Below are positions 42,689 to 48,849 of a DNA stretch of 64,000 nucleotides, in pieces (within the stretch, counting starts at the first letter, position 1; the number at the start of each line of letters is the position of its first letter). A model generated the notes under the pieces. The model was not told the DNA's origin. It searched no databases and saw nothing but the letters and a program-made list of their open reading frames with translations. The position numbers and the translations under genes are program-made. The DNA lies in the NCBI GenBank assembly GCA_030432295.1, contig JAUIHI010000005.1:62001-126000 (forward strand), written 5' to 3'. The DNA comes from Anaerolineae bacterium. GTDB lineage: Bacteria > Chloroflexota > Anaerolineae > Caldilineales > Caldilineaceae.

Positions 42689-42728
42689 AGAGCGTTGGAA
42701 CGTCGAACCCTGCGCCTTCCAACGCTCT
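42689..42728. terminator. Hairpin after the OmpR-type histidine kinase gene
   Basis: AGAGCGTTGGAA (42689-42700) pairs exactly with TTCCAACGCTCT (42717-42728), and the right arm reaches into the stop codon of the minus-strand kinase gene. The 16-nt loop is large for a terminator; it is also convergent to the M48 remnant. Confidence 0.6.
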
Positions 42729-44172
42729 ACCGCTCTTTCGCTTCAGCGCTCCCCAGCCGCAGAACAAATTCCGCGCCGTGCCCGTCCCCTTCCGCCACAG
42801 TCAGTGTGCCGCCGTGGGCCTCGGCCAACCGCCGGGCCAGGGCCAGCCCAATCCCCATCCCTTCTTGAATCCGGGTCTGGTTGGGGGCGCGGTAGAAGAA
42901 CTGAAAGATATTTTCCCGATCCGCCGGGTCTATCCCCGGCCCGGTATCCCGCACACGCACGACTATCGGCGCGTTCTGCCCTGCCCCCTCCTGGGCCGCG
43001 GAGACAACCACCCGCCCCCCGGCTGGCGTATATTTGTAGGCGTTGTCCAGCAGATTGCCCAAAATCTGGCCGATGCGCACCGGGTCTACCTGTAAAGGCG
43101 GCAGGCTGGCAGCCACCTGACAGGAGAGGGCGATCTCTTTGGAACGCAATTTGCCTTCGCTGCGGTGACATTCGGCCTGAATCAGTGCGCCCACATCAGT
43201 GATTTTCAGGTCCAGCGCCAACTCCTGCATCTCGCTTTGGGCCAGCAGTGTCAGATCATCCAGCAGCAGGCGCAATTGGTCCACCTGCTCGTCGATACCT
43301 CCAGCCAGTTCGCCCACAACCTCGCCATTATTCCCGCTGTTCTGCCCCAACACCTGGGCCGCGGCTTTGATCGCGCCCAGGGGTCGGCCCAGTTCATGCA
43401 CAATACTGCGCAGAAGCCGTCGCCGGCCCTGTTCCAGTTCGTATAGCCGCTCGGCCATGCCGTTGAAAGTGTGGGCCAGCAGACGCACTTCGCTGGGGCC
43501 ACTCTCCAGGACAGTCGGCGGTGGCTGGTCAAAGCGGATGGAGCGGGCGGCTGCGGTCAACTGTTCCAGGGGGCGGTTGAGGGAGCGGGAGAGCAAAAAG
43601 CCCAGCAACCCGGCCAACACCATCCCAATTCCCGCGGTGGCCCAGACCAGCCAGCGCAGGAGCGCCAGCCGACTGCCTGTCTGCCCCAAGCCCTGGGATA
43701 GCTGAATCGCGCCCACCACCTCCTGATTTTCGTTGAAAACCGGCACAACCACATCCACCCCATTCGTCTGGGGATTCACACCGGAATGGGTTTGGCGGCT
43801 GGCTTGGCCCGCCAATGCCTGGCGCAGCAGCTCTTCGTTGAGGGAGAGGACGGGAACGTTTTGGGTGGTGGCCGCTACGCCAGAGGAGACCAGCAGACGG
43901 CCCTGGCTGTCCACCACAAAAATCTGGGCGGGCACAAGCACTTGCAGCCGGGTCATCAGGGGCTGGGACTGGTTGGGGTCCTTCCACGCCTGCCAGTTGC
44001 TCTGGGTCAGCCGGGCCACCAGTTGAGCCTGCACGGCCATTTCGTTGGCCACATTGACCAGCGCCACACGGGTTTCCAGCAGGTAGATCAGGGCCAGGCT
44101 GAAGAGTGGGACAAGGACGAGGATCGGTATGAAGTGGCTGAGGGCCAGGCGGAAACGCAGGCTGGAGAGCAT
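42727..44172 (-). CDS. Sensor histidine kinase (HisKA type)
   Basis: A 481-residue kinase. Two membrane helices (about 9-32 and 190-211) enclose an extracytoplasmic sensor domain of about 155 residues. A HAMP domain follows (SRSLNRPLEQLTAAARSI), then the H-box RSIVHELGRPLGAIKAAAQ with the phosphoacceptor His, the N-box DNAYKYTPAGG, G1 VRVRDTGPGIDP and G2 GMGIGLALARRLAEAHGG. The signal is unknown. The ATG at 44172 is chosen; a longer reading translates the repeat at 44197. It pairs with the response regulator upstream, from which it is now separated by a composite repeat. Confidence 0.9.
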   Translation of the reverse strand: MLSSLRFRLALSHFIPILVLVPLFSLALIYLLETRVALVNVANEMAVQAQLVARLTQSNWQAWKDPNQSQPLMTRLQVLVPAQIFVVDSQGRLLVSSGVAATTQNVPVLSLNEELLRQALAGQASRQTHSGVNPQTNGVDVVVPVFNENQEVVGAIQLSQGLGQTGSRLALLRWLVWATAGIGMVLAGLLGFLLSRSLNRPLEQLTAAARSIRFDQPPPTVLESGPSEVRLLAHTFNGMAERLYELEQGRRRLLRSIVHELGRPLGAIKAAAQVLGQNSGNNGEVVGELAGGIDEQVDQLRLLLDDLTLLAQSEMQELALDLKITDVGALIQAECHRSEGKLRSKEIALSCQVAASLPPLQVDPVRIGQILGNLLDNAYKYTPAGGRVVVSAAQEGAGQNAPIVVRVRDTGPGIDPADRENIFQFFYRAPNQTRIQEGMGIGLALARRLAEAHGGTLTVAEGDGHGAEFVLRLGSAEAKER

Positions 44173-44196
44173 CGGATGTATTTCCCAAGAATGGAT

Positions 44197-44434
44197 AACC
44201 ACGAAGACACAAAGCCACAAAGAAAAACAGTCTCTTTCTTTTGCTTTTTGTACTGGTCAACGGGATGGTGGAATGGCTATTTCTTAACGCAAAGATGCAA
44301 AGAGGCAAAGGCACAGAGAGAAAAGCGATTTCTTTGCGTCTCTGCTCCTTTGCGTCATTGCGTTGAAACTTCCACCATCTTCTTGACTACTACACTTTCT
44401 TTTGCTTTTCTTTGTGCCTTTGTGCCTTTGTGGT
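44197..44434. repeat. ACCACAAAG-type palindromic repeat, copy 4, split by a 146-bp element
   Basis: Left half from 44197 (AACCACGAAGACACAAAGCC) and right half ending at 44434 (CCTTTGTGCCTTTGTGGT) form the same hairpin as at 25603. The loop region is interrupted by the element at 44249-44394, with the 15-nt sequence CTTTCTTTTGCTTTT on both sides. It fills the gap between the response regulator and kinase genes. Confidence 0.9.
44249..44394. mobile_element. 146-bp MITE-like element, copy 1
   Basis: Begins TGTACTGGTCAACGGGATGG and ends with the inverse of TGTAGTAGTCAAGAAGATGG, so the ends are imperfect terminal inverted repeats of about 25 bp with TGTA/TACA tips. The interior is itself a hairpin of AACGCAAAG-type sequence. 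It is flanked by a perfect 15-bp direct repeat (44234-44248 and 44395-44409), expected of a target duplication. No coding capacity. A nearly identical copy of the same length lies in inverse orientation at 48704-48849. Confidence 0.88.
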
Positions 44435-44440
44435 AAAAAC

Positions 44441-45133
44441 TTACGCGCCAGAGACCAGCCGATACCCCACGCTGCGCACGGTCAGCAGACGCTGGGGTTT
44501 GTTGGGTTCGGTCTCGATTTTAGTGCGCAGCCAACGCACGTGGACATAGACAGTCTGGGGTTCACCCGCCCATTCCTCGCCCCAAACATTGACAATAATC
44601 TCTTCCAGAGGCACAGCCTCGCCCGCGCGCTGGGCCAGGTAATAGAGCAGGTCGTACTCTTTGGGGGCCAGTTCGATCAGCTTGCCGCCAACTGTCACCT
44701 GATGGGCCGTGGGATCGATGCGCAGATCGCCCACGGCGATGGGTTGGGCAGGCGGAGCAACGGGCTGGCGCTGTTGTGCCCGGCGCAGCACCGCCTTCAC
44801 CCGGGCCAGCAGAATGTCCATATCGAAGGGTTTGGTGACGTAGTCATCTGCGCCCATCTCCAGGCCCACAATCTCATCCAACTCCCGGCGGCGGGCGGTG
44901 ACGAAGATGACCGGCGCGGCCACTTCCTTCTGGAAAGCGCGCAGGGTTTCCAGCCCGTCCATCCCCGGCAGGCCGATGTCGAGCAGCACTAAATCCGGGC
45001 GCAGCTTGCGGGCTGCGGCCAGACCCTCCTCGCCACTGCCCGCGGTTTCCGTGGCATAGCCAGCGTCGGTCAAACTCAGCGAAACGCTGCGCCGCATCAA
45101 TCTGTCGTCGTCGATCACCAGAATTCGTGTCAT
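44441..45133 (-). CDS. OmpR/PhoB-family response regulator
   Basis: A 230-residue regulator. The receiver domain has the acidic pair IDDD at 7-10, the phosphoacceptor Asp at about 52 (LLDIGLPG), the Thr/Lys switch residues in VIFVTAR and DDYVTKPFD, and a C-terminal winged helix (ELAPKEYDLLYYLAQRAGEA, then TVYVHVRWLRTKIE). It should be phosphorylated by the kinase at 42727-44172. It starts 28 nt after the P450 stop codon, so P450 and regulator may be co-transcribed. Confidence 0.92.
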   Translation of the reverse strand: MTRILVIDDDRLMRRSVSLSLTDAGYATETAGSGEEGLAAARKLRPDLVLLDIGLPGMDGLETLRAFQKEVAAPVIFVTARRRELDEIVGLEMGADDYVTKPFDMDILLARVKAVLRRAQQRQPVAPPAQPIAVGDLRIDPTAHQVTVGGKLIELAPKEYDLLYYLAQRAGEAVPLEEIIVNVWGEEWAGEPQTVYVHVRWLRTKIETEPNKPQRLLTVRSVGYRLVSGA

Positions 45134-48703: not shown

Positions 48704-48849
48704 TGTAGTAGTCAAGAAGATGGTGGAATTTTCAACGCAATGACGCAAAGGAGCAGAGACGTAAAGAAATCGCTTTTCTCTCTGTGCCTTTGCCTCTTTG
48801 CATCTTTGCGTTAAGAAATAGCCATTCCACCATCCCGTTGACCAGTACA
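48704..48849. mobile_element. 146-bp MITE-like element, copy 2
   Basis: An inverse-orientation copy of the element at 44249-44394, also 146 bp, with TGTA and TACA tips. It is flanked by AGATTTTGCAGATTTT (48688-48703) and AGATTTCGCAGATTTT (48850-48865), a 16-bp direct repeat with one mismatch. The flanking sequence itself belongs to another repeat type (CAGATTTTATCTGTATTTAT), so it too was inserted in a repeat. No coding capacity. Confidence 0.88.

Follow-up and report, generated by a model that had tools for sequence, protein, structure and literature searches.

Insertion sequences of the IS481 family generate target duplications of 2-15 bp, with 15 bp in ISMac4 and ISA0963-1 (PMC10045372). 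Part of the IS1202 group, which has TG/TGT ends, makes duplications of 15-17 bp (PMC10045372), and 16-28 bp are given for the IS1202 long group (PMC10132070). Duplications of 15 bp are rare. We analysed a 64,000-nucleotide stretch of the genome of an Anaerolineae bacterium of the Caldilineaceae (hereafter the window), in which an initial annotation had reported a MITE with a 15-bp target duplication. Copies, empty sites and a sharp 15-bp peak in flank identity back that reading: the 146-bp sequence represents a family of non-autonomous DNA transposons (MITEs), itself part of a superfamily whose members in this Caldilineaceae genus have only their ends in common.

The element occupies positions 44249-44394 of the window (+ strand; coordinates and sequence match the earlier description exactly) and serves as the reference copy. 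Its terminal inverted repeats are imperfect and 25 bp long, with TGTA...TACA tips; the left repeat, TGTACTGGTCAACGGGATGGTGGAA (44249-44273, + strand), which is found again in other copies, agrees at 20 of 25 positions with the reverse-complemented right repeat (44370-44394), reading TGTAGTAGTCAAGAAGATGGTGGAA on the - strand. Inside lies a palindrome, AACGCAAAGATGCAAAG...TTTGCGTCATTGCGTT (approximately 44285-44367), similar cores of which occur in other genomes of the class without these ends. Outside, a perfect 15-bp direct repeat, CTTTCTTTTGCTTTT, borders the element on the left (44234-44248) and on the right (44395-44409). The entire element folds into one hairpin of -70.8 kcal/mol (shuffled sequences, -34.3 +/- 3.8; z -9.65), a fold that fits its earlier description as non-coding; it carries no gene, and an Rfam search of it returned nothing beyond a sub-threshold hairpin match.

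The insertion breaks an older palindromic repeat, AACCACGAAGACACAAAG...CTTTGTGCCTTTGTGGT (44198-44435), and parts a response regulator gene on its operon-upstream side (44441-45133, - strand; Pfam PF00072, PF00486) from a histidine kinase gene downstream (42727-44187, - strand; Pfam PF02518, PF00672, PF00512). Both gene assignments, proposed earlier from the letters, are confirmed by these Pfam matches. The 146-bp hairpin could act as a putative terminator between the two genes. At two loci of other Caldilineaceae (L091, L099) the gap between response regulator and kinase holds an unrelated palindrome of the GACCGCAGACCGC...GCGGTC type, as if this gap collects hairpin repeats.

The host genome (6.72 Mb in 61 contigs, rated 100% complete) was read directly in part, and the remainder was covered by pattern or profile search. 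It holds 33 copies of the element at 91-100% identity, besides further, more diverged ones. In the 30 copies examined with their flanks the boundaries fall at identical bases, so the ends assigned to the window copy are the exact ends of copies elsewhere, and most copies are bordered by a 15-bp repeat of their own, differing from site to site. Since so many copies have common ends and their own 15-bp repeats, the element at 44249-44394 is not a chance arrangement. A second copy lies within the window in the opposite orientation (48704-48849, - strand), between flanks AGATTTTGCAGATTTT and AGATTTCGCAGATTTT (15/16). Most aligned copies are within 0-5 changes of the consensus, and the spread of the 146-bp copies therefore looks recent.

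The site of insertion was also found empty. On contig CAMDEX010000110.1 of a Litorilinea MAG (L089), the gap between the same two genes (response regulator 87% identical) holds the outer palindrome ACCACAAAGGCACAAAG...CTTTGTGGT intact, with no insert and a single copy of the target; once the element and one of its two 15-mers are deleted from the window sequence, the two loci align again. The proposed insertion into an older palindromic repeat is thus borne out, and this relative lacks the second target copy along with the element. At a further locus (L150), a copy of the 146-bp element is split by a 137-bp relative with a perfect 16-bp duplication. These are two independent empty sites; the elements have moved. 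Insertions also occur in tandem: at C13/C58 two different elements apparently used one target, GAATTCACAAAAGAC, in turn, with three copies of the 15-mer (we infer the join across an unassembled IS), and locus L248 in genome G005 shows a similar tandem. In the relative G006, two superfamily MITEs interrupt adjacent DUF1670 (PF07900) genes (L292, G006:C357, 3721-5100), with 15-bp duplications ATTAATCGAAGAATT and GCATTTTGGAATATG.

These loci bear on a reading without any transposon, by which a palindromic regulatory or terminator repeat was spread by recombination and the direct repeats belong to the repeat itself. The strong hairpin, the intergenic location and the related cores present elsewhere in the class without these ends agree with such a history, but each copy has its own, differing flanking 15-mer, two insertions lie within the DUF1670 genes, and the orthologous and nested empty sites refute it in practice; we give it almost no credence. 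The C13/C58 junction (G000:C13 right end, L334; C58 left end, L214) holds a further insertion, in which an IS with the end GGTGCTCATCCGCTAATACTTTGA breaks a 137-bp MITE at TAGTGATC with an apparent 8-bp duplication; the broken MITE adjoins a 146-bp MITE, and the shared 15-mer occurs three times around the pair.

To keep the estimate of duplication length free of circularity, only the inverted repeats were used to place the boundaries, and the flanks on the two sides were matched at all lengths between 1 and 25. Flank identity in the host genome (58 elements) was 0.794 at 15 bp, compared with 0.388 at 14 and 0.422 at 16; 23 of the 58 duplications are perfect and 40 reach at least 80% identity. 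Relatives of the same genus gave 0.844 at 15 bp, compared with 0.371 at 14 and 0.348 at 16 (21 elements). Among mismatched flank pairs, used as control, 23/6162 reached 12 of 15 positions. The peak falls exactly at 15 bp, in agreement with the perfect 15-nt direct repeats noted earlier around the window copy, and the stagger of these insertions is 15 bp.

Alignment of 78 target sites showed a target preference. Positions 2-4 and 12-14 are W-rich, and the commonest bases are G at position 1, T at 6, A at 10 and C at 15, which gives an AT-edged motif approximately symmetric about its centre, roughly G-W-W-W-Y-T-N3-A-R-W-W-W-C. Such symmetry would be expected from a two-fold symmetric strand-transfer complex. 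A preference for insertion into hairpins was rejected: strong hairpins (at or below -35 kcal/mol) were present in 15% of own-genome empty sites and in 3% of GC-matched random windows, but the overall shift was not significant (p = 0.11).

The duplication length would also fit a MITE descended from a casposon, with a Cas1-type casposase as the mobilising enzyme; casposases make duplications of 14-15 bp (PMC6977970). The targets, however, are AT-edged and symmetric and have no CGCA motif, no tRNA gene lies near any of the 30 fetched copies (mostly 1.5 kb per side), and the genome's sole Cas1 is an ordinary CRISPR Cas1, encoded beside a CRISPR array and a cas2-like gene; we regard this origin as very improbable. 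In the CRISPR-Cas locus (G000:C39, 1-9000; L152), cas1 and the cas2-like gene are accompanied by an array of GTTTCAATCCCTCGGATGGGTTGGGGGTGGTTCGGAC repeats, which lies at the contig end.

The ends extend well beyond the 146-bp family. End patterns matched 133 sites in the host genome, whereas the reversed-pattern control matched 0, and the sites that were read are mostly paired approximately 65-160 bp apart, as further families. Many diverged elements carry the TGTANTGRTCAR... ends around unlike palindromic interiors, which are family-specific passengers: palindromes of the AACGCAAAG and GACGCTGATT...CTGCGT types in the host genome, and those of the GTAGGTGCGGTTTGCAACCGCAC and GTCGGACTAACAGTCCGAC types among relatives. 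Each same-genus genome holds between 4 and 144 end matches. Our catalogue comprises 95 distinct elements with target duplications, 67-361 bp long; none of the catalogued elements exceeds 400 bp, and no pair of terminal inverted repeats with a duplication was spaced more than 400 bp apart. One of the shortest superfamily members is a 69-bp element, TGCATTGGTCAGGATGACGCGGC...CATCCTGACCAATACA (L254, G005:C2, 3545-3613). Outside the genus, matches to the 146-bp query mostly cover just the interior palindrome, which is also present there without these ends, and IMG/VR (exact end patterns), phages and plasmids gave no match. The length below 500 bp with terminal inverted repeats, the lack of a transposase gene, the dispersed copies with duplications and the empty sites are those of a bacterial MITE. 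The superfamily is real, orphan and recently active, and its duplication is unusually long and constant.

We looked for the driver of these elements. The assembled host genome gave no match to the rve integrase core (PF00665, E<=0.001) and none to the ISNCY profile NF033594, which we take to cover IS1202. A full-length IS with the same 25-bp ends, which the initial annotation had suggested seeking, was found neither in the host genome nor in the portions read of four genomes of the same genus. The assembly breaks or drops repeats longer than approximately 127 bp at contig ends (overlaps of approximately 127 bp). An IS present in several copies could therefore be absent from it, but the ends of such an IS would then be expected within approximately 130 bp of contig ends. 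Of 122 contig ends, 93 were examined and none showed a matching IS end; the only ends of this type there are left over from elements that other IS had interrupted. Either the driver has been lost or has escaped assembly, or it is of a kind that was not anticipated.

Several candidates were rejected. Genes encoding four-helix-bundle (PF05635) and GxxExxY (PF13366) proteins, present in 9 and 3 copies, are accompanied neither by these ends nor by convincing 15-bp repeats. ISNCY-like elements of class relatives have different ends and no duplication of at least 14 bp, and own and same-genus sequence read directly held no homologues of their transposases. A non-palindromic, IS-end-like end in the relative G002 (contigs C83, C162) led to nothing longer in 396 genomes. 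On C5, the contig-edge sequence beside the TTGACTACTACA end turned out to come from an IS630-type IS (DDE_3) that had inserted into a MITE, and the inverted-repeat-like end at the C13 edge belongs to a MITE cut by another IS. A multi-copy IS630-type IS (DDE_3) is present at six contig ends (L300 at G000:C5, 1-145; L301, L302, L205, L312 and L356), one copy being inserted near the end of a MITE.

We propose that a DDE-type transposase acting in trans would bind the TGTANTGRTCAR... ends and excise or copy the element, whose two 3' ends would be joined to the target strands with an offset of 15 bp at a symmetric, AT-edged site, gap repair then producing the 15-bp duplication. The enzyme would be of IS481/IS1202 type, now lost from the genome or missing in the assembly. 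We put the probability that the MITE is moved in trans by such a DDE transposase, with a 15-bp stagger, at about 0.6. The DDE chemistry is presumed, and an IS481/IS1202-type enzyme is the best candidate because the elements described in the literature as combining TG/TGT ends with such duplications belong there. The IS481-type driver that had been suggested earlier was a reasonable guess on the same grounds; the TGTA...TACA tips agree with TGT...ACA and 15 bp falls within the 2-15 bp of the family, but the assembled genome, which has gaps, gave no rve-type (PF00665) or NF033594 match, and an IS of full length carrying these ends turned up neither there nor in the same-genus sequence read. With respect to IS1202, the imperfect inverted repeats (25 bp, 20/25) agree with the approximately 22-29-bp repeats starting from TGT, the 15-bp duplication compares with 16-28 bp in the long group (PMC10132070), or with 15-17 bp as given elsewhere for some of its members (PMC10045372), and the genome search with NF033594 detected no IS1202/ISNCY transposase.

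A driver of some different or undescribed type, a transposase that happens to make a 15-bp stagger, would account for recent copies in a genome that is rated 100% complete yet has no PF00665 match and no long element with these ends, and for one end type framing many unlike interiors in several species. It could be encoded by a domesticated gene that is present once and lacks flanking ends, in the manner of RAYTs for REP elements. However, the elements described as making 15-bp duplications with TGT ends belong to IS481/IS1202, MITEs commonly lose their driver after a burst, and repeats above approximately 127 bp are dropped from the assembly at contig ends; we consider a driver of another kind rather unlikely. 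More doubtful is a specific form of it, in which a driver outside rve/IS481/IS1202, perhaps standing alone without ends of its own, mobilises any hairpin framed by TGTANTGRTCAR ends with a constant 15-bp stagger; if true, it would be a new driver class.

The family offers a large collection of natural, independent insertions, almost always with 15-bp duplications, with a symmetric target motif and with empty sites, and it touches the question of why IS481/IS1202-type enzymes make discrete staggers of approximately 5, 15 and 25 bp. That one end type frames many unlike palindromes is also relevant to the spread of short palindromic repeats, both inside a genome and from one genome to another. 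A literature search for MITE studies in Chloroflexota returned none. Without its driver, the family remains a well-documented orphan MITE family.

Among known systems, casposons resemble the family in their 14-15-bp duplications (PMC6977970) and differ in being large, in encoding Cas1 and in targeting tRNA genes, none of which is seen here. MITEAba12 of Acinetobacter (113 bp) is likewise a short bacterial MITE with target duplications and an interior unrelated to its driver, but it has a 9-bp duplication and a resident driver with the same ends, ISAba12 (PMC6382973), unlike the orphan family described here. By published description, ISTde1, ISCARN53/62/63 and ISHahy13 of the IS1202 group share TGT/ACA ends, imperfect 24-27-bp inverted repeats and long duplications (PMC10132070); they are 1.3-1.7 kb long, encode transposases of 394-507 aa and make duplications of 16-17 bp, compared with 15 bp here in a host with no NF033594 match. 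ISMac4 and ISA0963-1 of the IS481 family, also compared by published description, are alike in the 15-bp duplication and in the TG/TGT...ACA ends that are typical of that family (PMC10045372), but they are archaeal full-length IS with a DDE transposase, whereas the elements here are 67-361 bp long and geneless, in a host with no rve-type gene. The parabasalid families IS481EU-N1_TV to N3_TV are non-autonomous, have similar tips and include families with 15-16-bp duplications, and for some no autonomous partner is known (PMC10045372); their hosts are eukaryotes, and their duplications vary (approximately 4, 15, 25) even within a family, whereas those of the Caldilineaceae elements are almost only 15 bp.
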